This document shows positions 18,105-53,792 of a stretch of 64,000 bases of DNA, in pieces. The stretch is from Malus domestica (taxonomy: Eukaryota; Streptophyta; Magnoliopsida; Rosales; Rosaceae): assembly GCF_042453785.1 (NCBI RefSeq), contig NC_091670.1, positions 40,497,501-40,561,500 on the forward strand. Direction: 5' to 3'. The notes under the pieces were generated by a model. It was not told the origin of the DNA. It worked only from the letters and a program-made list of their open reading frames with translations, and ran no database searches. Each line of letters starts with the position of its first letter. The first letter of the stretch is position 1. Position numbers and translations under genes: made by a program.

Positions 18105-18566
18105 CTAGCAGTAAGCAGTACATTTCTTGCAGTCGATAGTGCACCCACCGCCGCCTCCGCCGCCACCAAAACCCTTCCCTGACCGGCTGTAGGATGTGAA
18201 GCACTTAGCAGGGCACGTCAGCTTCTTCTTGTAGCACGGACCCTTTTCTTTACACACAAGAGAAGTCCTCACAGTTCCACCCTTGGAGTACCCTCCATTC
18301 GGACTGCCATACCCGCCTCCATATCCGCCACCCACACCGCTTCCAAAACCCTTTCCGAACCCTGGTATGTCAAACCCGGGCGGGAAAAACCCCCCTATGC
18401 CACCACTGTTGCCACCCCCACCACCACCACCATTAGCAGCACCACCTTTGTCCTTTGAGTTCTTGAGCTCAGCTGAGAAGGCTCCATCGGATCCCGGTCG
18501 GGCTGCGATGCCAAGTGAAGCAGTGAGGAGCAAAGTGGCTAGGAAAAGACTTGTTGCTGGGATCAT
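18105..18566 (-). CDS. Secreted glycine-rich protein with cysteine-rich C-terminus
   Basis: A single-exon gene of 153 aa. A signal peptide (MIPATSLFLATLLLTASLGIA) is followed by a short polar region and a Gly-rich middle (about residues 43-105, GGGGGGG and GGGYGGGYG blocks). The tail has eight cysteines in paired spacings (CKEKGPCYKKK, CPAKC, CTIDCKKCTAYC) interrupted by another poly-Gly run. This build suggests an apoplastic or cell-wall protein stabilised by disulfides. I recognise the general glycine-rich class but not a named member. I chose the ATG at 18566; an in-frame GTG at 18590 is not a credible plant start. Its Gly codons make the opposite strand open as a proline-rich frame, which is a shadow. 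Confidence 0.85.
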   Translation of the reverse strand: MIPATSLFLATLLLTASLGIAARPGSDGAFSAELKNSKDKGGAANGGGGGGGNSGGIGGFFPPGFDIPGFGKGFGSGVGGGYGGGYGSPNGGYSKGGTVRTSLVCKEKGPCYKKKLTCPAKCFTSYSRSGKGFGGGGGGGGCTIDCKKCTAYC

Positions 18567-18644
18567 TTTTCTGGCTTTTTGGAAAAGCACTTATGGAGAG
18601 AGTGATGAGATAGAGAAGAGAAGGGATTGTTAGGGGATATGGTG

Positions 18645-28616: not shown

Positions 28617-28738
28617 AAAGCAGTGGGTTCTGGAAAGAGCATTCAGCAAAACCAACTTGTATTTTGCATCAAAACTTCAGAAAACCACATACAGAATTCA
28701 GAAGGTTTTATAGAAGAAGAAGAAGAAGAACTAGAGAG

Positions 28739-28909
28739 ATGGAAGGTTCCGCATCCAATTCTACCGCCGGGAGAGCGATGATGAACGGCAGGGATTTCTC
28801 GAGGAGATTTTCTGGCCGGCCGATTCCCAAGAGAGGTCAGGTGAAGAAGAGAATCGTGGTGAGATTAGCCAATTCCGTGGCTTCAGTATTCAATCCTCAT
28901 CGTCCATAA
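28739..28909 (+). CDS. Small basic peptide gene 1 (type I, IPKRGQVK family)
   Basis: An intronless ORF of 56 aa, starting MEGSASNSTAGRAMMNGRDF, with the core IPKRGQVK at residues 29-36, a basic/hydrophobic segment after it (KRIVVRLANSVASVF) and end NPHRP. It is strongly basic with no signal peptide. It is supported as a real gene by a TATA box, an A-rich leader and three related copies in this window that keep the reading frame around the core. I do not recognise a named function. The hydrophobic stretch could be an amphipathic membrane-associated helix. Confidence 0.7.
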   Translation: MEGSASNSTAGRAMMNGRDFSRRFSGRPIPKRGQVKKRIVVRLANSVASVFNPHRP

Positions 28910-30036
28910 AAGCACATGGCAGCAGCCTAAGTAACTCGTAGTTACTAAACTTAAACAAATTTCGAGATCGAGTAATTAGGTCAAGAAGTTTTGAGGATTT
29001 GAGCGGGTTGTTAATTTGTTCATGTAACGGATTTTAATCTTTGTACATAGTGTAGAATTTGAATCAATTATTGAAATGAGAATCTGCATTTCTTTGAGAA
29101 TCTGCATTTCTTTGGTCAAACAAAATCGTATCTCTTTGGTCAAATCATTTTGTTTGGTACAACAAATCTGGTGCGCGAAATGAAATCTCAAAACCTAGAA
29201 CAAAACTTGCAGGAACTCATATTGCATAGCAAGTTTTACTTAAAAATGAACAGATAATGCTTTTAGTGTACACTGTTAGTGTATCAGATCCGCTATTTGT
29301 AAAGAATTTGTAGCTTAAATAGTGAATAGCGTTTAGCCTTGCACCTTAGCTCTATGTTCAATTCGCCATCCCATAGTATCACTTTTATATAGAAACAAAA
29401 ATTCCACTTGTTTGGCCCTGGATCATGGATTTGATAGAGCTAGTACCTTTTATAGTATATCATGCGTTAGAGTAATTTATTGTAGACGATGAGTGATTTA
29501 TGATCGATTAATGTATTTTAAAGCTCAAACTAATGATAATCATTTACCCACACACAAACAATTGATTGTATCAAAATTCAAATACAATATTATCAAAATC
29601 CAATGATTAATACTAGCACTACGACATTTTCTATGTCTAAAAATAGATTAGATTGAATAATACTAAATTCAATACCATCATAAGTGGATAACACTGATCC
29701 GGATGCAGTGCATGTGCTTATGCAGTAGTTATGTAAGATATGGGTGGATTACGATATGAATGAAACCAAACAACCATCAACCAACTCTTACAAATATCGT
29801 AATAATCTCACTGCCTACATCGAATCTATGCCTCTTTCTTTTAACACAATCTGACACAATGAAACACATGTTCTTGCAGATTTTGGTCCAAAGTCCTTTT
29901 CAGTACAAGATTAAGTGCATGCATCGTATTATATAAAGGCCATCACAAATGGCCCTACTTTAAATAATTGTCAAGTATCATTTATCTCTTTCAACAATTT
30001 TTCTTTCACGGTATATACCTATGAGTGATCCAAAGA

Positions 30037-30183
30037 ATTAACCGTAGAATAATTTAGTAGATCAACTCGTTAATCTTGCATAAAATTCATATGATTAAGT
30101 GCGACGTATTAACTGTAGAATAATTTAATAGATCTTACAACTCGTTAATCTTGCATAAAATCCATACGAGTAAGTGCAACATA
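30037..30183. repeat. Tandem duplication, about 73 bp x 2
   Basis: Both copies contain TTAAC(C/T)GTAGAATAATTTA, AACTCGTTAATCTTGCATAA and TAAGTGC(G/A)AC in order. The equivalent place in unit 2 (about 35120-35200) has only one diverged copy, so this duplication arose after the segmental duplication or was lost in unit 2. Confidence 0.8.
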
Positions 30184-30947
30184 ACATTGTATCCAAATCT
30201 TGCATATTATATTAATCGAAAATAAGGTTTTAGATTCTAAAAAGAGATTGTAAGATCTTTGGTAGTGAAGGCTATTTGATTTTTCAAACCCTTGAACTAA
30301 TAAATAATTGCAGATAAGTCCTGCTTACGAGACCCAACAAACTTCACGAGTGGAAGAGAATCATATGACTTTACTTTTATAGTGGGAGTCAGCAAAGTGG
30401 TCATGTGATTCTTGTCGACTCTAATACAGCAGCAAGGAACCAGCACAATTTATACATTTGTTTAATTGGTCCTACTTTAATTTGCTACTTTCACCATGAT
30501 TAACTTAACTTTACTACTTTAGGTCATATTAATATTCAAATTCTTTACTTTACAAATTGTCGTGTTGATATTTACTGGATTTTTTTGTTGGTTTTCCATT
30601 TAAAAGATGTATTATGTTGATGAATTGGTGGCAGGAGAACTCAACAGCCGGCAGGGTCAATGTTGGCAACAAATGAAAGTCAATGAGTCCTAAAGAGATT
30701 AATTTTTGTTAATTGTTCAGCATATGTCCCTAAACTTGGTACTTTAAATTGAAGGTAATTTGGAAAACAACTAATTGGTTTTTTACTCGAGACTTGGTTT
30801 GAGTAAAATGAGGTTATGCGAAAGGGAAAATCTTCGGTGAGAGTCTTAACTTATGCGATTGTCAGACTTTATAGATAATCATTTCAATCTCAAAAGTATG
30901 AACATCTTATGTATTTCGGTCTCATCAGCCTCGCATTAGTTTTAAGA

Positions 30948-31100
30948 TGGTGCTATATATCCACACAGTTATTTTTACCTCTCACATACTACTCTCAATT
31001 TACAGCGGTTGGATCGAGCGAATTGAAAAACCCCAATGCTAAAAAATTAACAAGGGTGTAGAGAGGTAAAAAGATGTGTGTGAACAACAGTACCTTGATT
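30948..31100. mobile_element. Foldback MITE, family A copy 2
   Basis: The ends GGTGCTATATATCCACAC and GTGTGTGAACAACAGTACC, and the inner arms TTTTTACCTCTCACA and GTAGAGAGGTAAAAA, are inverted repeats. The centre GCGGTTGGATCGAGCGAATTG resembles the centre of 1869-2015. It is absent from the matching place in unit 2 (about 35940-35960), so it probably inserted into unit 1 after the duplication. Confidence 0.55.
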
Positions 31101-33060
31101 TTATTATTTTGAGACACTTGTCTTACGTGGCAATCACACACACGATTTATTTTTGTATGGCTGAAACGACCACGTCATCTTTAGAGTAGCTCTTACAAAA
31201 ATATGACGACCACCGTATTTCGTGGTGCATTGTTTTCGAAGGTTGATCTACAAGAAAAACATTCGTACTTTAGAAAAAGAACAAGCATTGCTGTACTTGT
31301 TCCATGTATAACAAAACAAAAACACTCAAAATATGCTGCAAAATAAGGGTTCCCTTTATAATTGGTAGCCTTATCAGTTATTTTGTCCATAATACAAATT
31401 ATTAGACCCAAATCTCTTCCCTTTTAAACATAATCTAACATAATTAAAATATTGTGTCCACTGTCTAGTGGGTATATTTAGATGAAGTACAATGAATCAA
31501 GGTGCTCCCTTTTCCACTATCAGATTCAGTGAATGGTTTGACTCTCTATAATTGTACTTTGAAATAATCTGATACAACTGTAATTCACATATAATTAGCA
31601 GTTTGTAATTAATTAATTATATTAGTGGCAGGGACATTATGTTTTTTGTTTTACAAACGAGAATTAGTGGATTAAACTGTTAGCTGGTAGAGAGAAAAAA
31701 GATTGAACCCGCACCAGAGCAAGGACATTATGTTTGGAAATCTTTAATCACTAGGCTTAAAGAAAAATGGAATATTTTTACTCACGACCCTCAAGTGATG
31801 ATGATGCTTATCATCTTATTTATCACCATTGGATGAGTTTAAATTTCGAGATCTGGGTAGACACAAACCTCAAAATTTAAACTCATTCAATGCTAATAAG
31901 TAGCGTGACGAGCATTACCTTCACTTGAAAGTGGTGAGCAAAAATGCATCATATCCTTTCTCTTTATAGTTGTTAAATTTATATAATTGTTCACTATACT
32001 TAAGGAGTCATTTTTTATTTCCAAATAACAATCTGACCTAGACAAAAGTAACTTGTTAAAATCGTACAAAGAAGTAAATATATCAAATCATGATTTTTCA
32101 TGCAGGCAGAAATAGCTCATTCAGGGTTTTCAGTGTGCAAGAAACTTTGTATTTGATTCCTATAAATTAGAAATAAACTAAAAGAACGAACCAGAAAACT
32201 GAAGTCCAATACGAGGGAGTTTAATTGCTGTAATTTAAGAGTTTTATGAGTTTGATTAGTATAAAATATGACTCTAACAACTATATTATGTTTATACAAG
32301 AAATAGAATACTGTTATTAGATTCAAATTCAAACAATTTAATTTTTATATATGGAAATCAGGCTCCCATACATAGCCGTAAAAAGCCTTATAACCCACAA
32401 TTTAGGTCATCTCTAATTAATACAGGTGACACATTTAGTAGCTCCAAATAATGTAACTCCTTCATGCATGCTCCACTTGGTCCAAGGGAGCAATGAGGGT
32501 CGGAGAATGACAATCATTCATTCTTAAAATCAACATTCTTAAGATTAATAGTCGGATGAAAAAGAGAAAAAAAATCTCTATTTCTTATTATCTTGTAACT
32601 AAATTTTTTGAAAATTTTACGTAAGGTAAAAGTTTGGGTTTCTCAGGAGTAATAGTTTAAAAGTTGACAATAAATTACTTTTACTATCACTCTAAAAAAT
32701 CGTACATGAGATTTTTACTCTTTTGTGAAATGTTGAACGGCTTTTTCTGTTTAACTGGTTGTGAAGAGAGAAGAATTTAGTTTATGAGTTTAAGGTGTAG
32801 AGATAAAAAAAGCTTAATAAAAATGGAAAACCGACAAAACGAGCCAATAAAATGTGAAGTGTGAACACGAGTCACAAGACCAACCAAGAAGGTCAAGATT
32901 GTCTTTATAAAACCATAGAAAATACAGTCAAATTCTACGAGCAACACTGGATACTCAAATATATTAATTTCCCCAAATTTTTAAAAAGTTGACATAAAAA
33001 ATAAAAAAAATAAAAAAAAATAAAAAAAATAAAAAACAAAAAAGTTTATGTCCTTAGTAT

Positions 33061-33068
33061 TATATAAA
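33061..33068 (+). promoter_or_regulatory. TATA box of small-peptide gene 2
   Basis: TATATAAA, conserved with 42130-42137 in unit 2, followed in both by a nearly identical leader of about 210 nt. Confidence 0.65.
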
Positions 33069-33285
33069 CACAAACAAGAAAACCCAAATCACAAAACAAC
33101 CTCACAGCTCAAAAGTTTCAGACTTTCAAGATTCAAACAGTCATTTCTTCTCTCTTGCTTAATAGAAGGACTGATCTCCGCATCGAGAAGAGCTTTCGAA
33201 GCGTTGGAATACTGAGAGTGTTCTCTGCTTGATATATATACTTTTTGATCCCTTATTACGATAATAATCAGAAGCAAAAGAATAG

Positions 33286-33486
33286 ATGGAGGGTGCAAGG
33301 AGTGCTATGATTAACGGGGGGAGTTTATCTCAGAGGTTCAATTCTGGCCGTCTGATTCCCAAGAGGGGTCAGGTGAAGGTGGCTATTGTTGGGGTTCTGC
33401 TTCACTCTTTCTCCTCCGTTTTCTCTGCCGTCAGCCGCCGTCGCGGCGGCGGTTGTCAATCTAGTGATGCTCATCACTTCTCTTAG
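33286..33486 (+). CDS. Small basic peptide gene 2 (type II, IPKRGQVK family)
   Basis: An intronless ORF of 66 aa, starting MEGARSAMINGGSLSQRFNS, with core LIPKRGQVK at residues 23-31. A hydrophobic segment follows (VAIVGVLLHSFSSVFSAVS, about 32-50), then an Arg/Gly/Cys tail (RRRGGGCQSSDAHHFS). It has its own TATA box. The 3' UTR contains a (GAGTGAGC)n repeat at about 33555-33590. The frame and most residues are conserved in the retrotransposon-split copy of unit 2, so selection acted on it at least until that insertion. Function not recognised. Confidence 0.72.
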   Translation: MEGARSAMINGGSLSQRFNSGRLIPKRGQVKVAIVGVLLHSFSSVFSAVSRRRGGGCQSSDAHHFS

Positions 33487-33554
33487 CTGATGAGATCATG
33501 TTCTGATCAATCTTTCAGTCCATTTTTTTTTTTGTGAAATATTTTTACATCTTA

Positions 33555-33590
33555 GATGAGTGAGCGAGTGAGTGAGCGAGTGAGTGAAAG
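33555..33590. repeat. (GAGTGAGC)n tandem repeat in the 3' flank of peptide gene 2
   Basis: A run of 4- and 8-bp units, GAGTGAGCGAGTGAGTGAGC. The unit 2 counterpart has only GAGTGAGGGAGAGG, so the array expanded in one copy. Confidence 0.8.
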
Positions 33591-33736
33591 GGGGTAAAAA
33601 GTTTGAGCTCTTGTCTTTGTTTCTTGCAACGTAGTTACATAAGGCTGTAAAATTTTTGTAGTTTGAAGAGGATTTTGCTACAAGAAGAAGAGCTACACAG
33701 TTCAGAGGGTTTTATACAAGAAGAAGAGCTACAGAG

Positions 33737-33919
33737 ATGGAAGGTTCCGCATCCAATTCTACCGCCGGGGGAGCGACGTCGAGGAGATTTTCCGGCCCGC
33801 TGATTCCCAAGAGGGATCAGGTGAAGATGGGAATCGTGGTGGGATTAGCCAATTTTGGCTTCAATCTTCAATCCTCATCGTCCATAAGTGCACATGGCAG
33901 CAGCCTAAGCAACTCGTAG
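33737..33919 (+). CDS. Small peptide gene 3 (type I, diverged, altered C-terminus)
   Basis: A 60-aa ORF starting MEGSASNSTAGG, a close copy of gene 1, with the core changed to IPKRDQVK (residues 23-30, Gly to Asp). About seven codons present in gene 1 (the MMNGRDF region) are missing. A net 2-nt loss near 33858 shifts the frame, so the end (NLQSSSSISAHGSSLSNS) is read partly from former 3' UTR. The duplication junction lies in the leader, so gene 1's TATA box is not present upstream; transcription would need gene 2's 3' flank. It may be a pseudogene or a young variant. Confidence 0.5.
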   Translation: MEGSASNSTAGGATSRRFSGPLIPKRDQVKMGIVVGLANFGFNLQSSSSISAHGSSLSNS

Positions 33920-33989
33920 TTACTAAACTTAGACGAATTTCGAGATCGACTAATTAGGTCAAGAAGTTCTGAGGCTTGAAGAGATTGTT

Positions 33990-36130
33990 AATTTGTTCAT
34001 GTAATGGATTTTAATCTTTGTACATTGTAGAATTTGGTTCAACTATTGAATGAGAATCTGCTTTCTTTGGTCAAATTATTTTGTTTGGTACAACACTTTT
34101 GGTGCGTGAAATGAAATCTCAAAACCTAGAACAAAAATTAAACTGGAACACCAGGAGCAGGAACTCATATTGCATTTAGCGTACATTGTTAGTGTATTAA
34201 ACTGCTATTTGTAAGGAGTTTGTACCTTAAATGGTAAACAACGTTTAACCTTGCACTTGAGCTCTATGTGCGAATTCGCGATCCTATAGTATCGCTTCTA
34301 TAGAAACAAAAACTCCACTTATTGGGTCTTGAATCATATATTTAATAGAGTTATTACATTTTATAGTCTGTGAAGCGTTAGAGTGTATCATGATCGTTGA
34401 TTTATTGTAAATGATGAGTGATTTACAATCAATTAATGTATTTTAAAGCTCAAATTAATGATCACCATTCACCCACACACAAATTATTGACTGTATCAAA
34501 GTTTGAAATACAATATTATCAAAATTCGATGTACAATACTAGCACTACGACATTTCATGTCTAAAAAGAGATTAGAATCCGGATGCAGTGCATGTATTTA
34601 TGCACTAGGATATGAAATAATATGTAAGATATGGGTGGATTACGATATGAAGAAAACCAAACAGCCATCAACCAACTCTTACAAATATCATGATAATCTC
34701 ACTGCCTAGATCGAATCTATGCCTCTTTTAACACAATCTGACACAATTAAACACATGTTCTTACAGATTTTAGCCCTATTCCTTTTCAATACAATATTCA
34801 ATGCATGCATCGTACTATAATAAGGCCATCACTTTGTTTGGCGGTACTGTTTCTATGTTTTTAGGGTTTGATAATGGAGAGCAAACTCTCATGGCAGATG
34901 TGCACCGCTACCGAGGGATTTCGGGTCAGTGAAACTAGGTCATGTGAAGAGAAAATTGCATAAAATATCATTTACGCACTTATAATATCATGATAATTAT
35001 ATACGTAACATCATGATTGTTTCCTGCACCATAGATTCGTAGAAGTCCTTCTCAAAATAATTGGCATCTTTCATCTTTTTCAATAATTTTCTTTCATGGT
35101 GCATGTAGCTGAGTGATCTAGAAAATTAACGGTAGAATGATCTAAGAAATCTTATAATAATTAAATATTGCATCAAATCTATACTATGAAGTGTACGTAA
35201 CATTGTATCTAGAACTCACTTGTCATATAATCGAAGATAATGTTTTAAATTCAAAAGAGAGATCCCAAGATCTTTGGTAGTGAAGGCTATTTGAGAAGAG
35301 AATCATATGACTTTACTTTTTTAGTGGAAGCTAGCTAGCAAAATGGTCATGTGATTCTTGTGCACTATAATATAGCAGCAGGAGCAACAAGAAGGAACCA
35401 ACACAATTTATGCATTTGTTTAATTTGGTCCTACATTAATTTGCTACTTTCACCATGATTAACTTAAACTTTACTACTTTAGGTCATATTAATATTCAAA
35501 TTAATTCTTTGACCTTACTAGTTGTCGTGTTCATATTTACTGGGTTTTTTTTTTTTTTTTTTATGGTTTTCCATTTTAAAAGATGTATTCATGTTGATGA
35601 ATTGGTGGCCAGAGAACTCAACAGCTGGCAGGGTCAATGTTGCCAACAAATAAAAAACAATCAGCCCTAAAGCAATAAAATGTAAAAGTATACATAAATC
35701 CAAAGATTAATGTTTGGTTAATTGTTCAGCTGTGTCCCTAAACTTGGTACTTTAAGTTGAAGGTAATTTGAAAACAACTAATTGGTTTTTGACTGGAGAC
35801 CTAGTTCGAGTAGATAGGGGTAACGTGAAAGGAAAAATCTTAGTGAGAGTCTTGACTCTTGAGATTGTCGGACTTTATTGATGGTCATTTCAACCTCACA
35901 AAAGTACAACCTCTTTTATATCTTGGTCTCATCAGCCTCGCATTGGTTTTATTATTGGGAGACAATTCTCTTATGTAGCAATCGTGCACAACATTATTTT
36001 TGTATGGTTGAACGACCACGCCATTTGTAGAGTAGTTTTCATAAGAATGTAATACTGATTGTATTTTGATCTAATCTCACCCAGTATAAACACTGCCCTA
36101 ATCAATAGTCATATCGAAGTTTCTTTCTTG
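33990..36130. other. Spacer of duplication unit 2, before the first LTR element
   Basis: Non-coding and alignable to about 28990-31180 of unit 1. A T18 homopolymer at about 35545-35563 is unit 2 specific. No gene seen. Confidence 0.6.
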
Positions 36131-36135
36131 GTTTA

Positions 36136-36734
36136 TGTTGGAGCAATATTAGAAAATATGAAAAATAACAATATAATTCCAATAATAATAAAGAAATTCA
36201 CAACATCAATTATATATGAGATTAATATAAACAACTAGAGTGAAAGTTAGAAAACTGACAAACTTGGAGATTGAGGCTTGCATAAATGCAATGTCCTAAA
36301 GATAGAATTTCGCCCCTACTCTTGTGCTTGTAGTTCGATAGGCGTCTATCTCCCAGGATTCAACAATTTATAATCCGAAGTCAAAGCACTTCAATCTTCG
36401 GACTCTGGCGAACTTCATATATTCTGTACTCTCAAGACACAACTCGGAATTTGACTAAGAATGAGAGAAATAAAGTGGGGAAACCCTATTTCTCAAGAGT
36501 AAAAATTAACTCTAATTTCTCTATTTCTAATACCAATGGTTTCATGGGTTTATATAGAATCCAACTTCTACTTATTAAAGAGATGTAACTTTTCACTATA
36601 AGTATACATCACCTATCAAGGGAATATCACTTAAACAACATAACCTTTCTAAGAAATTGGTTAACACTATTTTTCATTCAATTATTAAAATTATATATTA
36701 CAATATTTCATATTATAATATATAATTTCCAACA
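36136..36734 (-). repeat. LTR (3' in element orientation) of the LARD-like element
   Basis: 599 bp; pairs with 39708-40306. Confidence 0.9.
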
Positions 36735-39707
36735 ATCCCCCACATGAATGAAAAATTAGGAAGAATTTGAGAGTACAGGCGGAAAAGAGATGCATCGGGA
36801 GAGGTGTCTTTTGGACTTGAACCTACCCTAGTGAATATTTATCGGATTTACTTGGTGACGCAGTGAATATAGAATCTTGAACTGTTCACCGCAGTAGTAA
36901 ACCGAGACAATAAGCAACACACATCACTAATCCTAATATATTCCAGTTCATACGGTTGTGTTCATTTTGGTCCTGAACAAATCCCGGATTCATGAGAGCT
37001 TTAGAGAATTTAGCCATCTCATTCTCATAGAAGCGACCCACTTCTACTCTCACATAGGTGACCACTGATTAAGAATAGTCTGCTTTATTCCTCTTATTTA
37101 TAAGATATCATTGTCATTAAGTATAAATATACAACCTAAAACATCTGCAGACAACACACTTCTTCCATCTTAGGAATGAGGTATATAGTGTGTTAACTTC
37201 TTTGAATCATGCCCAACCAGTTTGCCTATTGAACTTAGACCATGGGATCTCCAATCAATTAAGTTAGGTTTCCGCTCGGCTGATTCATTAGTTATGTTGG
37301 CTTTAGCCTCATTCCCCTCGATGATCAACTTACTCTCTAGTCTAACCTTTAATAATTGGATCCACTATTAGGTTGACTATTTTTAATGGTGTGCACAATC
37401 CATCTTATGAAATTATATTTCATACGAGAGTAGTTGATTTACAATGTCAAGTCCTCAACCGTACATGTTGGGACTTTAGTTAGTAATTTGCTAATACTTG
37501 GGCATACTCCCCCACATTTAAGGTAGTTGTAAGAAGGTCTCTAACCTTGCCATACCTTAAACAATTACTCATTACAGGAGATGACATCTTAAATGTCGTT
37601 CAATCAGCAACTTACTTTTAACCAACCCCCACAATTCTTTCATAATTATAGTTTCTTGTAATGCTATCATTAAATCGATCACATTTTCCACTTTAAGAAG
37701 TAAGGAACAATTAAGATAGACTTTATCTATCTTTTTAGGCATTCATGCCTCACTAGAAATTATGAGAAAATCACTTCTTGGCTTTCATTCTTTCCTTACT
37801 ATGACTAACATGCATGACCCAATGGCCATGTCCAATCATATGCTTACTTAATAAGCATCATTATGTCGAATTCAAATCTGCGAAATGTCTTTTACATTTT
37901 CAGTATGGTTTTGTCCTTTTTTGAAAGACCCCCACACTTTCATGATTATTTCTTTATATTAATATCATTTTAAATGACACTCAATATCATCTTGAGCCTC
38001 TTATAATTTATAAATATATCACTTCGAAGAAAGCATATAAATGATTTTGCAACATTATTATCACTATATGATAATACATCCAGTCGGTATGTAGAAGTTT
38101 ACATACCAGCCCATGAACACATTTGAATATGTCAATGACTAGTTGGAAAGGTCATACCCTTTCACTATCAAAAGCAACACTTCAAATGACATGCTTTTCC
38201 TTTGAATTTCATGGCAGATTTCAATTTTCAATTCCACCACATTACAAAACCATCCATTTGTTAAATAGTTGCATCTTTCTACAACTTAACCTCCACATGG
38301 TTCAATATAAGTCTTGGACCTTGACCCCATAATTAAATAAGCGTTTTTCGACGTTGGCAGATAACTCATCTAAAATGAGTTCAGTTTATCATTTTATTTT
38401 CGTTGCTTCTCAAAGCCAAATTTATCCACTTTCTGGGTTCTTATCATGACTGACCATGACTAAAGACTAAACCCAATTTTGCATATGCACACATATGCTT
38501 GAGTAATTGTTCAATTTCCTTCATATGTATTCCATTCTTTCCATGAATAAATATGAATAATCATCTTATATTTCTATGATACCATGGAAGTTGGGTTCAT
38601 ATCTTCTACTGGAGTTTTCCAAACTGTTTCAATACAAATTTAGAACAACCCCATTTTATTTGGGTAGTAGCTTTCGCTGACATCTTTATGAATATAAGGG
38701 TTTTCTCAACAAAACCCGATTAATCATCCTCGTGCCCAATCAAAAATTGATTTCCTTTGTCCCAAGAAAGAAACATTGTATCAGTCCACGAACTGGTACA
38801 CATTATTGCCCTTTTATATTTGCAAATAATGCAAATTTTTGAATCAAGCCATTTCATTTAACCTTAACCGTCACATCCTTTCTAATAGAAAAGTCAATGC
38901 CAAACATACTTGCCAAATATTCATGAATGATGCAATTGAATCATGAGAATCGCATATGTGAAACAAAAGATTCATGATTGCAGTGTAACATATATTATCA
39001 ATATATCCATGTTTTCTCTGAAAATGTCTCAAAACCAATCATGATAATCAAAGAAAATTTAGAATAGCCATATCTGATTTCAGCCCCAACCACGAACCAC
39101 ACTAAACTGATTGGTTAAAGTACCGAATACCTTTTCATGGAGATATCCAAGTCACTTATCAGTAACTCATGAAATAATTTAATTTTGTTCTTTGAAAGAA
39201 ACACTCTGGGCATCAGCCCATATGACAATTCAAATTTTAACATGGTGGTAAATGGCCAAAGACATCAATACCCTATCACTGTCAAATGTAGAAAAATCTA
39301 TTTATTAATTCTTTTATTCTCTTACGCATGGCAGATTCATTTTAGTGAGAATAACCAAGCAAGAAGGCATATATGTTGTAACATACATATGCAGACAATG
39401 AAAGCACACATATCACTGCCAGATGAAAACCGAAAAACATCTTCTAGTATATACAGAATGCAATTTCCACTAGTGTGGCAACATACAGACATTATTGTAT
39501 ATATCAAGAATTCAAGCACATCAAATAAACTAATATACATCAATATGCACGTAAAATCCAGCCCCACAAATTTTCCAAAGCAACATCAGAATTTCTTCTA
39601 CTTAGCATTTAGGGCTACGTTCAATGTTATTGATTTTAACTTCTTCTATTACGTACTCAGACTCATACTCTCTAATATTGCAAGAGAAAAAAATTCTATC
39701 TTTAGAT

Positions 39708-40306
39708 TGTTGGAGCAATATTAGAAAATATGAAAAATAACAATATAATTCCAATAATAATAAAGAAATTCACAACATCAATTATATATGAGATTAATAT
39801 AAACAACTAGAGTGAAAGTTAGAAAACTGACAAACTTGGAGATTGAGGCTTGCATAAATGCAATGTCCTAAAGATAGAATTTCACCCCTACTCTTGTGCT
39901 TGTAGTTCAATAGGCGTCTATCTCCCAGGATTCAACAATCTATAATCCGAAGTCAAAGCACTTCAATCTTCGGACTCTGGCGAACTTCATATATTCCGTA
40001 CTCTCAAGACACAACTCGGAATTTGACTAAGAATGAAAGAAATAAAGTGGGGAAACCCTATTTCTCAAGAGTAAAAATTAACTCTAATTTCTCTATTTCT
40101 AATACCAATGGTTTCATGGGTTTATATAGAATCCAACTTCTACTTATTAAAGAGATGTAACTTTTCACTATAAGTATACATCACTTATCAAGGGAATATC
40201 ACTTAAACAACATAACCTTTCTAAGAAATTGGTTAACACTATTTTTCATTCAATTATTAAAATTATATATTACAATATTTCATATTATAATATATAATTT
40301 CCAACA
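39708..40306 (-). repeat. LTR (5' in element orientation) of the LARD-like element
   Basis: 599 bp; pairs with 36136-36734. Differences include CGCCCC/CACCCC and TATTCTGTAC/TATTCCGTAC. Confidence 0.9.
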
Positions 40307-40827
40307 GTTTAAAGTCACAATCATAGTTTTCAAAGGTTGATCTACTAGGAAAACATTCGTACTTTAGAAAAAGAATTAGCTTAGCTGTTCTTGTTCCATT
40401 TATAACGAAACAAAACACTAAGAATATACTGCAAAATAAGGGTTCCCTCTATAATTGGAAGCCTTATTAGTTATTTTGTCCATAATCCAAATTATTAGCC
40501 CCAAATCTCTTCCGTTTTAAACATAATCTAACATAATTAAAATATTGTGTCCACTGTCTAGTGGGTTTACCTAGATGAAATACAACGAATCAAGGTGCTC
40601 TCTTTTCCACTATCAGATTCAGTGGGTATTGACTTTACAATTGTACTTTGGAATAATCTGATACAACTTTAATTCACATATAATTAGCAGTTTAAAATTA
40701 ATTAATTATATTAGTGGCAGGTACATTGTTATGGAGGAGAGAGATCGATGATGACCAAATCCGCACCGATATGTATAGACAAAGACATTATGTTTTGGAG
40801 CTTTAATCATTAGTGGGGAAAAGAAAA

Positions 40828-40962
40828 TGGAACTTTAATAAAAAATCTGGTTCACATTTTTACACTAAAAAGTCAATTCTTTTACTATTAATTTTATTCT
40901 TTATTTTGTATTTATCATTAAAACTCAAAATTTTCAAACCATTTTCATTAATTTTCCTAAAG
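40828..40962. mobile_element. Dispersed MITE-like repeat, family C copy 1
   Basis: GGAACTTTAATAAAAA ... CATTTTTACACTAAAAAGTC ... CATTTTCATTAATTTTCC. The same ordered words occur at 53471-53620, and the ends are imperfect inverted repeats (GGAACTTTAATGAAAA / GGAAAACTAATGAAAA type). Confidence 0.6.
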
Positions 40963-42129
40963 AAAAAGATTCGAGTTGGGCACTTCAATTTGAATCTAGT
41001 TCAGGCCCTTACGGGACCGGGCTGACCCGATTCAGGATTTGCTTGGCTCTGCAGAATAAGTAAAAGCTAAAGACAAAACAATTCTCTAGGACTAATCTCT
41101 AGTTACATGTATAAACAGTAACCGAAAGATTAAAATGAACGGATGACATAAAATTTTGGTTTAAGTTATTATTCGGATCAGGAAAACTCGAATAAGAAAC
41201 CCGGTCGAAAATTTAACATGAATCACATCTCTTCATGGAGTCGTTGGCAGGGTTTATTTCTGTTAGTGAAATTGTCTCACTCACTTTGTAATCTTTTTAA
41301 TTAATTTAATTAAATTTTCTATATTAGGTTCATTAAATGACAGATTTATCGGTGCGTACTCAAAGTAAATTCATTGTAATTAATTTGTATATTTGTACTT
41401 CTATATATTGTATATTTGTGAATAAATGAAACACTGCCACTAAATTCAAATTCAAGTCTTATATATAGAATTCAAATTCATGTAGAAAGCAGCTCCAAAT
41501 GTGACATTTCTCCACTCTTATTTTTATTATACGTGTAAGAAAAACCAAGTATTTTCCGTTTTATATAATTTCAAGTTTGTGATTGTTGTGTGTGAAGTGT
41601 TGAACGACTTTTCCTGGTCGAAGTCATTGTGAAGAGAGAAGCTATTAGTTTATGAGTTCAAGGAGTACAGAAAAAATAAAAAAAGAAATCAAGATCCTCA
41701 TCAAATCTTCAAATTCGGATCCAGAAATCTAAAAATTTGGACTATTTAAAAGAGGAGAGAGAATTGAACTCTTAGTTTAAATGAGTTGATCAATGAAATA
41801 AATAAATTAGGCCGTAAGATTTTAATTGAGTAATTTGAATTTCTGAATCTGCTTATTTTGGACACAAAAATCAAGAGACGACGTAAATTCAGAAGAAAAA
41901 AAACTTATAAATTGGAGAACCGATAAAATAAAATTTTTCATCAGTTATATAAAAACACGTAATGTATCACTCGTGTTCCTGTCACAATTAAAAATTTCTC
42001 TAAGAAGGAAGGTCAAGATTGTCTCTGTCAAACGGTCAAATTCGACGAGCAACACAGTCTAATCAAATATATTAATCTCCCCAAAATAAAATAAAGTTAA
42101 AAAAATAAAAAAGTTGATGTCCTTGGCAC

Positions 42130-42137
42130 TATATAAA
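42130..42137 (+). promoter_or_regulatory. TATA box of small-peptide gene 4
   Basis: TATATAAA in a context matching 33061-33068 of unit 1. Confidence 0.6.
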
Positions 42138-42358
42138 CACAAGCAAGAAAGCCCAAATCACAAAACAACCTCACAGCTCAAAAGTTTCAAACTTTCACGA
42201 TTCAAGCACTCATCTTCTCTCTTGCTTAATCGAAGACGGATATCTGCATCGAGAAGAGCTTTTGAAGTGTAAAATACTGAGCGTTCTCTGCTTGATATAT
42301 ACTTTTTGATCCCTTATTAAGATAATCAGAAGCAAAAGAAGTGATGGAGAGTGCAAGG

Positions 42359-43036
42359 TGTTGAATTAATGGCCACAAGTGTCCAAAAAACCTTTCGGCT
42401 ATTAAACAAACCAAAATAAAAAAAGGTGAAAGACATCATGATGAGGAGGCATCATGATTATGTTTGTTGAAAAGAAAAGTTGATGGTCATGATGATGTTT
42501 TTGAATTTTTTATTGGGTGATGATGATGGATGAATGTTATCATACGGAAGTGAGAAAGAGAGATGAAGTAGTGTGCACCATTTTCTGTTTTGTAGTCCAT
42601 CTTTGAGAGAGCAAAGAGAGCTGAGAGCAGAAAACTGAGAGCAGAAAGAGAAGAAAGAAAGGTGATTTCTTTCTTTGTTGGTACTCACTCAATCAAAGTT
42701 GTATTTGTGTATTAGCTTTGAGTTTTGTATAGAGAGGAAATTATTCACTATATTTCCCTCTCTATTTGTTTCTTTGGTGAGTGAGAATTATTGGGTGTAT
42801 TGGGTTATTTGGGTTGTGAGATTGCCAACACTTTGTAAACTCCAATTTGGTTGATAGTGGATTATTGGGTGAGCTCCTACTGCTCCGAGGACGTACTCCA
42901 GTTACACTGACTGTTGAGGAACCTCGTTAAAATCTTGGTGTTCTTTAATATTTTGTTCTTGCATTTTATTTGATATATTTCCTGTGGGTTATAAAAGAGT
43001 TGGTTCTAAAAGGTTTGGTGCTATCCTAGCACAACA
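42359..43036 (+). repeat. 5' LTR of the copia element
   Basis: 678 bp, TG...CA ends; nearly identical to 47259-47939. Confidence 0.95.
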
Positions 43037-43085
43037 ATTCGTATCAGAGCACTGGTTGCTCTTAGGTACTGTCTAGTTGTCAAAG

Positions 43086-46000
43086 ATGTCAGACGGGCAA
43101 GATGAAAATCCTTTTGGAAGCACCTCCGGGTTTGCAAGAACTACGGTGCAAAATGCAAAGTTCGAAGTGGAAAAGTTTGATGGCACAAACAACTTCGGGA
43201 TGTGGCAATGTGAGGTCAAAGATGTGTTGGCTCAACAAGATCTACTTGCCGCTTTGGGAGAGAAGCCGGAAGCTATGTCGAAGCCAGAATGGGAGAAATT
43301 AAATTTGTGGGCTTGCTCTTCAATTCGGTTGTGCCTTGCAAAAACTCAGAAGTATTTTGTGATGCGGGAGACGGTAGCAAGTGTGTTGTGGCAAAAATTG
43401 GAAGACAAGTATATGACAAAGAGTGCAGAGAACCGGCTACACTTGAAGAAAAAGCTCTACCGCTTCCAATACAAAGAAGGTACAAAAATGATTAGACACC
43501 TTGATGCTTTTAATAAGTTGATTGCCGACTTGTTAAATTTAGATGAGGATATTAAGGATGAAGATAAGGCCTTAATATTGTTGAATTCCTTGCCAGACTC
43601 TTATGAGCATTTTGTTACCACTATTATGCATGGTAAAGAAACTGTGAAATTTGAAGATGTGTCAAATGCCTTGATGAATTATGAAATGAGGCATAGAGAT
43701 AAAAATCATGATAGTACCTCTGAAGCTTTATTTGTTAGAGGTAGATCATCGGAGAGGAGGTCATCTTCTAGCAGGAAAAAATCACAGTCTCGACCTAGAG
43801 GAAACTCTAAAGGTAGAAAACCTTTGGAAAAGGATGAATGTGCATTTTGTCATAATAAGGGCCATTGGAAGAAAGATTGTCCTAAATTGAAGACCAAAGG
43901 AAAAGAAAGTTCTGAAGCTAATGTTGCTGAGGTTGAAACAGATTTTTCTGATTTTGCTTTAACCACTTCCTCATCATTTGATTGTGCTACTAAGTGGGTG
44001 TTGGATACGGGTTGTACTCATCATATGACTCCTCACAAGGATTGGTTTTCAAACTTGAAAAAGTTTGATGGTGGCGTTGTGTTCATGGGAGATGACAATC
44101 CTTGCACAACAAAAGGGATTGGTACAGTTCGTTTGAAGTTGCATGATGGCATGGTTAAAGAGTTGACAGGTGTTCGGTATGTACCGAATTTGAAGAAAAA
44201 TCTTATTTCTTTAGGTACTTTGGAATCCAAGGGTTTCAGGTTTCATTCAGATGGACAGACATTGAAAGTTACTTATGGTGCACTTGTTGTGATGAAAGCT
44301 CCTAGATGTGGCCATTTGTATTTATTGCAGGGAAGCACTGTGACAGATGAAGCATCTGTAGTATCTGAAAATATGGGCACATCTGATTCAGATACTACTA
44401 AATTGTGGCATATGAGATTAGGCCATGCCGGTGAGAAAGCTCTACAAGGGCTTGTAAAACAAGGTCTTCTAAAAGGTGCCACGACTTGTAAGCTTGATTT
44501 CTGTGAGCATTGTGTCTTGGGGAAGCAAACTAGAGTGAAGTTTGGTACTGCAGTACATCAGACGAAGGGCATTCTTGATTATGTGCATTCAGATGTTTAG
44601 GGTCCTACAAAGACTCCCTCTTTGAGTGGTAGACATTGGTTTGTAACTTTTGTTGATGATTATTCAAGAAGGTCTTGGGTCTACACTATGAAGCACAAGA
44701 GTGAGGTGTTGAGCATTTTCTTGGGTTGGAAGAAAATGGTTGAGAACCAGACTGGGAGAAAGATTAAGATTTTGAGATCGGATAATGGTGGTGAATACAC
44801 ATCCGATCCTTTCTTTAAAGTTTGCAAAGAGGAAGGAATTGTGAGACATTTCAGTGTTCGGGGAACTCCACAACAAAATGGAGTTGCAGAAAGATTGAAT
44901 CGAATCTTGCTTGAGAAGGTTAGATGTATGTTGTCTCAGTCGGGTTTAAGCAAGTCATTTTGGGCAGAATCAGTTAATTATGCATGTCACATCATCAACC
45001 GGTTACCCTCAGCTGCTGTTCAGGGTAAGACACCAATGGAGGTATGGACTGGAAAACCTTCTTCTGATTATGACTATATCCGTATTTTTGGTTCACCTGC
45101 TTATTTTCATGTGACTGAAAATAAACTTGATCCTAGAGCCAAAAAGGCTATCTTTCTTGGTTTTAGTAGTGGTGTCAAAGGTTACAGGTTGTGGTGCCCA
45201 GAGATGAAAAAAATTGTAATCAGCAGAGATGTGACATTTGACGAAGAAAGTATGTTCAAAGACTCTGAGAAAAATGTGAAAGATGTCCAACAGGTGGAGC
45301 TTGAGAAAGTTGCCTCTGGTACTTCAAATCCTATTTCCGCTGATGTCGAAGCCACTACAAGTGAAGAAGTTGGAGACCATGAGGATGTTGAAGAAGTTGA
45401 ACTTGAAGATTCTATTCAAGTTGAAGAGCAAGTTTCACCTCAAGAGTCTATTGCCAAGAACAGAGGAAATAGACAAATTACCAAGCCAGCTCGGTATAAT
45501 GATTATGTTGCTTTTGCTCTTCCTATTATCACTGAAGAGATTCCATCCAATTATGAGGAAGCCATTGAGAGTGAGGAGAAGAAGAGGTGGTGCAATGCCT
45601 TGGGTGATGAGATGAATTCTCTCTTGAAGAACAAGACTTGGGAGTTAGCTAAATTGCCTAAGGGCAAGAAAGCTATCGGTTGCAAATGGGTGTATGCCAA
45701 GAAGGAAGATGCTGATGAGAAAAGCAATGTGAGATTCAAAGCAAGATTAGTTGCTAAAGGGTATGCACAAAAGAGGGCATTGACTACAATGAAATCTTTT
45801 CTCCGGTTGTGAAGCACTCCTCAATTCGCATTATGTTAGCTCTTGTTGCACAGTATGATCTTGAGCTTGTGCAACTTGATGTGAAGACGGCTTTCCTACA
45901 TGGTGATTTGAATGAAGAGATTTATATGTGTCAACCGGATGGGTATATAGTGAAAGGGAAGGAAAATTTGTTTTGCAAATTGAAGAAATCACTTTATGGC

Positions 46001-47116
46001 TTGAAGCAATCTCCAAGGCAATGGTATTTGAGGTTTGATAAATTTATGAGAGGCCAAAATTATTCTAGAAGTCAATATGATCATTGTGTGTACTTCAAGA
46101 AGTTGCAAGATGGGTCTTTCATTTATTTGTTGATATATGTTGATGATATGTTGATTGCCTCAAAAAATGTTGAAGAGATTGAAAAATTGAAGAAGCAAAT
46201 GAAGAATGAGTTTGAGATGAAGGATCTTGGTGAAGCGAAGAAGATCCTTGGCATGGAGATCACTAGAGATAGAGAGAAGAGTTTGGTCAGTTTGAATCAA
46301 AGACAATACCTTGAGAAGTTGATTCGGAAGTTTGGAGTTCATGATTCAACCAAACCGGTTAGTACCCCTTTGGCTTCTCATTTTAAATTGAGTTCTCTAC
46401 AATGTCCTAAAAATGATAAAGAGAAGCTGCAAATGAAAAATATACCATATGCAAATTTGGTTGGTAGTTTGATGTATGCAATGGTATGCTCTAGACCGGA
46501 TATTGCTCATGCAGTTGGCATGGTGAGTCGATATATGCATAATCCAGGTAAAGAGCATTGGCAAGCAGCTAAGTGGATATTGAGGTATCTCCATGGTACT
46601 CGAGATGTTGGTTTATGCTTTGAGAGAGATGACTCTGGTATTGGTCATTTTGCAGTTGGTTATGTTGATTCAGATTATGCAGGTGATCTGGATGGAAGGA
46701 AGTCTACTACAGGCTATGTGTTTACTATGGCTAAATGACCAGTTTGTTGGAGGTCCATTTTGCAGTCGTCTGTTGCCTTGTCTACTACAGAGGCTGAATA
46801 TATGGCAGTTGCTGAAGCTATAAAGGAGGCCATTTGGATACATGGGCTGATTAGGGATTTGGGGGTTGATCAGAAGCAGGTGGAGGTACATTGTGATAGT
46901 CAGAGTGCCATTTATTTGGCTAAGTATCAGGTTCATCATGCGAGGACCAAGCACATAGATGTGCGTTATCACTTTGTTCGTGAAATTGTTGGTGAAGGGG
47001 AAATCATTCTCCAGAAGATTCCAACTAAAGACAACCCTGCTGATATGTTGACTAAGGTTGTTGGTGTAGCCAAGTTTGTTCACTGTTTGAACTTGGCTCA
47101 CATTATGCCTATATAA
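43086..47116 (+). pseudogene. copia gag-pol polyprotein, interrupted
   Basis: The first ATG after the primer site is at 43086. Visible domains in order: gag with a CX2CX4HX4C zinc knuckle (CAFCHNKGHWKKDC, about 43840); protease (WVLDTGCTHH, about 44000); integrase zinc-binding region (about 44405-44520) and catalytic core (FVDDYSRR, RSDNGGEY, GVAERLNR; about 44640-44900); reverse transcriptase (about 45560-46390, YVDDM); and RNase H (STTEAEYMAV to the C-terminus). Three lesions break it: a TAG at 44598-44600 where the family has Trp, a 1-nt frameshift near 45775, and a TGA at 46736-46738. It cannot make a full polyprotein as it stands. Confidence 0.93.
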
Positions 47117-47258
47117 AGAAGGCGTTGAGCAGTAGGAGTTTTGGAGTATTTGGCTCGGCATGAGTTGTTCTCTTGCTAGTGTTCGGGAGTGATGTTGCGT
47201 GCTAATTGTGTTGGTTGGCTTATCATGGCGTTTTTCGGAACTTGGCCAAGGTGGAGAT

Positions 47259-47939
47259 TGTTGAATTAATGGCCACAAGTGTCCAAAAAACCTTTCGGCT
47301 ATTAAACAAACCAAAATAAAAAAAGGTGAAAGACATCATGATGAGGAGGCATCATGATTATGTTTGTTGAAAAGAAAAGTTGATGGTCATGATGATGTTT
47401 TTGAATTTTTTATTGGGTGATGATGATGGATGAATGTTATCATACGGAAGTGAGAAAGAGAGATGAAGTAGTGTGCACCATTTTCTGTTTTGTAGTCCAT
47501 CTTTGAGAGAGCAAAGAAAGCTGCAGAGAGCAGAAAACTGAGAGCAGAAAGAGAAGAAAGAAAGGTGATTTCTTTCTTTGTTGGTACTCACTCAATCAAA
47601 GTTGTATTTGTGTATTAGCTTTGAGTTTTGTATAGAGAGGGAATTATTCACTATATTTCCCTCTCTATTTGTTTCTTTGGTGAGTGAGAATTATTGGATG
47701 TATTGGGTTATTTGGGTTGTGAGATTGCCAACACTTTGTAAACTCCAATTTGGTTGATAGTGGATTATTGGGTGAGCTCCTACTGCTCCGAGGACGTACT
47801 CCAGTTACACTGACTGTTGAGGAACCTCGTTAAAATCTTGGTGTTCTTTAATATTTTGTTCTTGCATTTTATTTGATATATTTCCTGTGGGTTATAAAAG
47901 AGTTGGTTCTAAAAGGTTTGGTGCTATCCTAGCACAACA
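47259..47939 (+). repeat. 3' LTR of the copia element
   Basis: 681 bp; differs from the 5' LTR by a GCA insertion near 47523 and three substitutions. Confidence 0.95.
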
Positions 47940-48129
47940 CAAGGAGCGCTATGATCAACGGCGGACGTTTCTCTCAGAGGCCCAATTCTGGGCGTCTGAT
48001 TCCCAAGAGGGGTCAGGTGAAGGTGGCTATTGTTGGGGTTCTGCTTCACTCTTTCTCCTCCGTTTTCTCTGCCAGCAGCCGCCGCGACGGTTGTGAATCT
48101 AGCGATGCTCATCACTTCTCTTAGCTGAT

Positions 48130-48968
48130 GAGATCATGTTGATCAATCAATCAGTCCAGTTTTTTTGGTGAAAGATTTTTACATTTTTTATGAGTGAGGG
48201 AGAGGGAAGGGTAAAAAGTTTGAGTTCTTACCTTTGTTTCTTGCAACAAAAGGCTGTAAAAAATTTGTAGTTTGAAGTTTATAACTGTTGGAATATGTTT
48301 GTTAACTCTTAGTTATGTGTCTTCTTTCAATCCGTCTATTAAAGTGCGAGCATCGAACTCAAAATTAAATGACAATAGATTGGTGAGAAGGTCAAAATCA
48401 TTTTACCATTTACGGTACACAGAACTTCGCGACAAAAGATTAAGGGGTGGTTTGAGAGTGAGGTGCTTAAAAAAAAAGCACCCATGAAAAAAAGCTGTGA
48501 GGGTTTTAGGTGTTTGGTAAACTGAAAAAAAGGCTTATTTTGGAAGCTGCTGTGAGAATAAGCTGAAATCAAAGGAAAAAGCTGAAGCTGCTATTTGTAG
48601 CTTTGGAAAACTGGTTTTTTTTTCAAAGCACACGGAGCTACAGGGCTCCTTTAATGAAAAGACCCCTATCAGACTCCTTTTTTTTTCAAAAGCACTTTTA
48701 CAAAAAAGTTTACTAAACACTCTACTGATTTTTTTCACAACCGCTTATTCTCACAGCAACTTTTTTTCAAAGCACAGCAATATCAAACCAACCCTAAGAG
48801 ATTGAGTTTAAATTGAACCAAAAATTTCACCCAATTCGACAAATTGAGAGATCAAGATCTTAAACCTCTAACATATGTAGCCTTTATATTCGGAAGAAGG
48901 CGAAACGAGGAGTGTTAAAATCACTAGCCTATAACACATGGCAATGGTGTGTGAGGTGACTTGTAGCA
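48130..48968. other. 3' flank of the duplication and spacer
   Basis: The 3' flank of peptide gene 4 runs to about 48279, where similarity to unit 1 ends. The rest is the Harbinger-like MITE and the 3' UTR of the NDA gene (read on the minus strand). Confidence 0.6.
48444..48794. mobile_element. Tourist/Harbinger-like MITE with TAA target duplication
   Basis: The ends GGGGTGGTTTGAGA and (reverse complement) GGGTTGGTTTGATA are inverted repeats, flanked by TAA at 48441-48443 and 48795-48797. The 351-bp interior is rich in AAAAAGC/GCTTTTT words in both orientations and can fold back. The 3-bp TAA duplication fits PIF/Harbinger MITEs. Confidence 0.7.
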
Positions 48969-53470: not shown

Positions 53471-53620
53471 AGGGAACTTTAATGAAAAACTCTCGGTAAT
53501 GTTCACTTTAACGAAAAACCACATTTTTACACTAAAAAGTCAATCATGGTACTATTCACTTTACCCTTTATTTTGTCCTTATCATTAAAACTCAAAGTTT
53601 TCAAGCCATTTTCATTAGTT
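53471..53620. mobile_element. Dispersed MITE-like repeat, family C copy 2
   Basis: AGGGAACTTTAATGAAAA ... CATTTTTACACTAAAAAGTC ... TTTTCATTAGTT, ending in a T17 tract. It shares its word order with 40828-40962. Confidence 0.6.
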
Positions 53621-53792
53621 TTTTTTTTTTTTTTTTTAAGCTCCTCTCATCCAAGAAAATACTAGTGTAAAGTAAAGGGAAGTCAAAATGGAGTTCCATC
53701 AACCATAATGTGAAAAATGTGATTCCTAATTTTTCGAAGATTTTTGTGTACTTCATAAGTAATAACACCATCTTCAGCTTTCTATTTGAACC

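Follow-up and report, generated by a model that had tools for sequence, protein, structure and literature searches.

A doubled two-gene peptide locus in apple with a truncated type I copy and a type II copy split by a Copia element

Duplications and insertions of the kind described here are common in plants. Published parallels come from other systems. Tandem duplications reported in Drosophila yakuba make chimeric or partial genes (PMC5460883). In blood orange, the 3' LTR of Tcs1 is reported to supply the transcription start of Ruby (PMC5056178). For small apple proteins, HIPM is a protein of 60 residues described as transmembrane (PMC7529791). A tandem duplication and LTR element insertions are found together at a locus of Malus domestica that encodes small peptides of two types, I and II.

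The window, i.e. the whole stretch of 64,000 nucleotides that was analysed, corresponds to C10:40497501-40561500. Compared with itself, it yields 23 repeat pairs, the strongest being two LTR pairs and the segments shared by units 1 and 2 (Table 1). These units are collinear head-to-tail copies separated by a novel junction, the arrangement left by a tandem duplication. Their sizes agree with the initial annotation: 5004 bp for unit 1 (counted to 33693) and 14586 bp for unit 2, or 4824 bp once both LTR elements and one copy of each target site duplication (TSD) are removed. The collinearity claimed after removal of the insertions was recovered as nine unit segments in the same order and orientation. 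Unit 1 gave nine collinear BLAST matches with three unit-2 pieces kept as separate records (70.7-993 bits), together with two type I/type II cross matches (52.7 and 58.1 bits); the maximum over 100 dinucleotide shuffles of the unit-2 pieces was 32.8 bits. Across eight segments, the collinear segment 32888-32977 / 42008-42085 being left out, the units differ at 389 of 3077 sites (K80=0.139±0.007). Divergence does not vary significantly among the five longest segments (p=0.31), and does so among all eight (p=0.001).

Table 1. Features of the doubled locus, in positions of the window.
Feature	Position	Strand	Basis
TATATAA box 5' of I-a, outside the duplicated segment	28609..28615	+	motif scan
Unit 1	28690..33668	+	self-comparison, divergence analysis
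Type I gene I-a, 56 aa	28739..28909	+	frame; comparison with type II
TATATAA box 5' of II-a; no ATG before the start codon	33061..33067	+	motif scan
Type II gene II-a, 66 aa, frame intact	33286..33486	+	frame
New junction, II-a 3' end to I-b leader	33669..33693		unit alignments
Unit 2	33694..48277	+	self-comparison, divergence analysis
Type I gene I-b, 60-aa frame	33737..33919	+	alignment to I-a
LTR element A	36136..40306		LTR pair; TSD GTTTA at 36131-36135 and 40307-40311
TATATAA box of II-b, now 5.8 kb from the coding remnant	42130..42136	+	motif scan
II-b codons 1-5, ending in TSD CAAGG (42354-42358)	42344..42358	+	alignment
Ty1-copia element B, same direction as II-b	42359..47939	+	LTR pair, TSD CAAGG, Pfam domains
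II-b remainder behind element B	47940..48124	+	frame, alignment

The four peptides I-a, I-b, II-a and II-b share 14 invariant positions around SG..IPKR.QVK..IV. They had been taken for an apparently undescribed family, which stands as far as Pfam-A, NCBIfam, the PDB and text were searched. None of the four matches Pfam-A at E<=10 and none exceeds an NCBIfam cut-off; one sub-cutoff match to ribosomal L23 (14.6 of 166 bits) was rejected as chance. A PDB search with type II gave nothing at E<=1, and the strings PKRGQVK and IPKRGQ were not found in the running text of the papers covered, few of which are from subscription journals. No type II relative was found at E<=1e-3 in viral and genome contig collections, in which 49 viral and 489 genome stretches matched the peptide pattern. 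Within the genome, I-a matches seven places at E<=0.001 among the best candidates scored; the window accounts for all four of those on C10, and the others are on C5 (two) and C14 (one). A tblastn search of selected stretches adds two C5 type II genes, and C3 31037001-31047000 contains no family member at E<=0.01, a result that carries no weight because the coordinates come from another apple assembly. The AlphaFold2 model of type II, built on a four-row alignment, is weak (mean pLDDT 58.3, pTM 0.26), with a short helix at 14-17 and a long one at 27-49. The N-terminus is not signal-like by eye and a basic SGRxIPKRGQVK core precedes the one weakly predicted helix; from these traits we would guess, tentatively, at a small intracellular, membrane-peripheral regulator. 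On C14 (29555593-29556052, minus strand), a type I leader with 48 codons (window 28647-28882, 79%) lies just 5' of a frame with a DIOX_N match (PF14226, E 2.9e-9). There, a type I promoter and leader may possibly have been donated to a dioxygenase gene.

The initial annotation described the duplicated unit as a two-gene unit. This holds for the type II gene, which was copied whole, but the second type I gene is missing its 5' part. Homology between I-a and I-b starts at about 28685-28690, some 75 nt downstream of the I-a TATA box. The left breakpoint of the duplication is thus probably inside the type I leader, whose position is deduced from that box, and I-b would accordingly have been copied without a promoter. 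The copy starts in the leader, 25 nt past position 33668, where the II-a 3' homology ends, and a scan for TATA[AT]A[ATG] from the II-a start codon to I-b found no TATA-like match. I-b has also suffered an in-frame loss of 18 nt that are present in I-a and in the type I sequences of C5 and C14, and a 2-bp deletion whose frameshift replaces the conserved SVASVFN end. Neither the frameshift nor the missing promoter figured in the initial annotation, and neither did the position of element B within a type II coding sequence. With two synonymous and eight nonsynonymous changes (w 1.37), the I-a/I-b pair displays no sign of constraint. The C-terminus of I-a also differs from that of C5 type I. Between I-a and type II, dN is 0.33 and dS about 2 (saturated); I-a and II-a differ by 23.3 synonymous changes over 33 sites and 27.7 nonsynonymous changes over 105 sites (Fisher p=2e-5 on rounded counts), a pattern by which both look like old coding genes. 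I-b is presumably silent, although transcription running on from II-a could include it as a second ORF. Spanning the II-a/I-b junction, TACAAGAAGAAGAGCTACA occurs twice, 36 nt apart (33679-33733); this repeat is a small secondary duplication at the breakpoint.

About 1 kb of the mid-unit is non-homologous between the units. Positions 31639-32723 of unit 1 and 40728-41590 of unit 2 have no BLAST match to each other and 40-59% identity per 150-column window in a global alignment. C5 matches parts of the unit-2 version (e.g. 40981-41077 and 41560-41643), and its matches to the unit-1-only stretch are limited to the edges and an 84-nt inverted-repeat piece. Since C5 resembles the unit-2 version, unit 1 probably carries the replaced one. 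The unit-1-only stretch contains a palindrome (31774-31945, two 85-nt arms, 76% complementary, 2 nt between them), which also has C5 matches, left of the C5 type I gene. A short dispersed repeat at 40853-40967 and 53473-53622 is also present, inverted, on C5 at relative positions 31451-31612 (86% and 93%). Elsewhere, a glycine-rich 161-aa stop-to-stop frame with a cysteine-rich end (18108-18590, minus strand) has no Pfam match at E<=1, and comparison of the window with Rfam returned no family at gathering scores.

Unit 2 was said to be expanded by two LTR elements. Both are real and lie where they had been placed, but this wording hides that a gene is broken by B. Element A has 599-bp LTRs and the TSD GTTTA; its LTRs differ at 6 of 599 sites, all transitions (K 0.0101). 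Its interior contains 12 frames of at least 50 aa, the longest of 183 aa; a Pfam scan of that one frame returned CRLF2-like_D2 as best match, far below the cut-off. On the minus strand, one LTR is preceded by a GGGGGAT tract, which points to a minus orientation of A. LARD-like elements are large non-autonomous LTR elements of plants; A shares with them two LTRs, a TSD and an interior devoid of any gag-pol-sized frame, but its interior is only 3 kb. Alignment between the units was reported to resume exactly at both insertion sites. This is so at B and not at A, whose flanks (36049-36135 and 40307-40321) have no alignable counterpart in unit 1, where only 31203-31227 is left. Visual inspection shows the A site, unoccupied, in each of the two C5 units; it is gone from unit 1 of the window.

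Element B has near-identical LTRs of 678 and 681 bp, starting with TG and ending with CA, and the TSD CAAGG, as LTR-retrotransposons do. The LTRs show 3 differences in 678 sites, all transitions, plus three gap columns (K 0.0044). Retrotran_gag_2, gag_pre-integrs, rve and RVT_2 follow one another in three separate frames, in the copia order; the Pfam scan of a fourth frame (46802-47113) returned a sub-cutoff match only. Directly 3' of the 5' LTR stands ATTCGTATCAGAGC, a candidate primer site of the initiator-methionine type. The coding region (43086-47116) is broken by stops and a frame change despite LTRs differing at three sites.

Comparison with the orthologous locus in related species had been suggested initially. 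A comparison was made within the same genome, with C5, which we take to be homoeologous to C10; the loci are collinear, and a second doubling was found. C5:43925001-43975000 gave 85 BLAST rows with the window, most of the longer ones in order between 20.2 and 60.7 kb, some inverted, repeated or displaced. The C5 order is I-II-I-II: a type I gene of 64 aa, a type II gene of 54 aa, a fragment homologous to type I from about codon 23 onwards and a type II gene of 61 aa. The C10 junction links the type I leader to the place where the II 3' homology ends; on C5, type I sequence from about codon 23 is linked to a point lying earlier in the II 3' region. A deletion in a C10-like junction could have given rise to the C5 one. 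C5 unit 1 has its own LTR pair (515 bp, 94%) at about C5:43941066-43948909, with TTTGGCGCC after it; one frame at this pair includes a 60-aa piece with a sub-cutoff Retrotrans_gag match (E 0.009).

The four copies were compared over six blocks, hand-chosen from the BLAST rows (the label B4 is unused). Informative sites group 67 times by chromosome, 7 times by unit and 4 times across, and indel runs 27, 5 and 6 times, respectively. Without the two type II blocks, 52 sites group by chromosome against 3. Unweighted block means are 0.117 for the C10 pair, 0.179 for the C5 pair and 0.199 between C10 and C5. The C10 copies are closer to each other than any C10-C5 pair in all six blocks. The C5 copies are closer to each other than to C10 in four (narrowly in B3) and further apart than all C5-C10 pairs in B2 and B6. 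From these distances, the C10 duplication is either younger than the chromosome split or homogenised, the case of C5 being less sure. It is the in-block comparison only that carries a duplication younger than the split, as the C10-C5 flanks have a K of 0.134 (10497 sites in nine segments picked from the 85 rows, exons included; 0.09-0.19 per segment), about the same as the unit K of 0.139.

The main alternative to separate doublings is a single tandem duplication before the chromosome split, with gene conversion later homogenising the copies on each chromosome. One event is simpler than two, and the I-II-I-II order is identical on both chromosomes. The distances in B2 and B6, which make the age of the C5 duplication uncertain, suit an ancestral duplication followed by conversion, and the site pattern would also be expected if only the C10 pair had been homogenised. 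Against it, sites and indel runs group overwhelmingly by chromosome, the seven sites grouping by unit are no excess over the four across (p=0.55), both C5 type II genes have in common a 15-nt gap absent from C10, and the breakpoints of the two chromosomes differ. The balance of these observations suggests that two separate duplications are likelier than one; the ancestral duplication is possible but rather doubtful, and we infer that the C10 and C5 doublings were independent.

Both insertions followed the C10 duplication, as initially claimed. Differences between units far exceed those between LTRs, with odds of a difference 14 times higher than for A (Fisher p 5e-24) and 33 times higher than for B (Fisher p 2e-31), and neither element has a match in the collinear C5 locus. 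Expressed as fractions of the in-block C10-C5 distance, the divergences are about 0.6 for the C10 duplication, 0.05 for A and 0.02 for B. The difference between the two elements is not significant (p=0.32), which leaves the insertions unordered. Substitution rates of 1.3e-8 to 4e-9 would date B to 0.17-0.55 My, A to 0.39-1.26 My and the duplication to 5.4-17.4 My; as these ages depend on the assumed rates, the ratios are preferred.

The type II copy II-b is split by B exactly after codon 5 (AGG), in ATG GAG AGT GCA AGG, a site that is uninterrupted in II-a and in both C5 type II genes. Before the insertion, II-b seems to have been constrained. Its comparison with the C5 type II genes gives w of 0.17 (p 0.001) and 0.22 (p 0.004), and II-a against II-b gives 0.33-0.34 (Fisher p 0.055 or 0.035 with two slightly different codon pairings). 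Apart from these and the I-a/I-b pair, the other eight of the 12 pairwise comparisons give 0.38-0.83 (p 0.08-0.77), among them those of II-a with the two C5 genes, at 0.55 and 0.49, neither of them significant. All 12 have small counts, uncorrected p and a w that mixes both lineages instead of isolating the II-b branch. These values suggest constraint on II-b until B arrived, after which its function would have been lost.

Alternatively, B may have captured II-b, its 3' LTR driving a shortened type II peptide, for which the case of Ruby and the Tcs1 3' LTR offers a published parallel (PMC5056178). B and II-b have the same direction, and the first ATG 3' of the LTR (47951, 11 nt between) opens an in-frame ORF of 57 aa that keeps the whole conserved core. 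A single ATG, opening a short frame at 47698, is present in the last 470 nt of the LTR, a TATAAAA lies at 47893, and the methionine that would start the remnant is at a position where type I has a methionine too. Plant LTRs are however usually methylated and too little time has passed since the insertion for selection to be visible, and we hold such a capture to be improbable. That mis-joined haplotypes, an error known in plant assemblies, imitate the tandem duplication is scarcely credible, with a unit K of 0.139 far above allelic level and a doubled order that recurs on C5.

The history that we favour, and consider likely as a whole, would have begun with a local tandem duplication from inside the type I leader to just past the type II gene. 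It would have copied type II whole and placed a promoterless I-b directly behind II-a. Freed from constraint, I-b would have lost 18 nt and shifted frame; II-b, with its proximal promoter, would have remained coding until the Copia element inserted in the same direction after codon 5. A would have inserted independently in the noncoding spacer. On C5, an analogous and probably separate doubling with other breakpoints would have left both type II genes whole and one type I gene truncated. Of the genes at the C10 locus, I-a and II-a are most likely the ones that function today. A bolder version combines separate duplications on the two homoeologues, in each of which type I was broken and type II copied whole, with a Copia LTR that has just taken over a constrained type II gene, an LTR-driven, N-terminally shortened microprotein being born; we regard it as a long shot.

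The events themselves are ordinary, and the interest lies in the unnamed peptide family and the LTR-fronted remnant; this remnant and the C5 parallel raise the locus somewhat above the ordinary. One genome here holds a relative history of chromosome split, doubling and two LTR insertions with an internal control locus, around a family that has no name in the curated libraries searched. If expressed, the LTR-fronted remnant would show, at a very early stage, a microprotein gene given a new promoter by a retrotransposon.

Compared with described systems, the peptides share with HIPM their size and perhaps the plant group, and differ in that HIPM is described as transmembrane (PMC7529791). I-b recalls the duplications reported in D. 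yakuba, with a breakpoint in a gene and a frontless copy behind another gene, but it is a plant case, old and decayed (PMC5460883). Tcs1 is in the promoter of Ruby and is reported to drive its expression, whereas B is located after codon 5; in both cases a retrotransposon sits at the front of a plant gene, with its 3' LTR adjoining that gene (PMC5056178).
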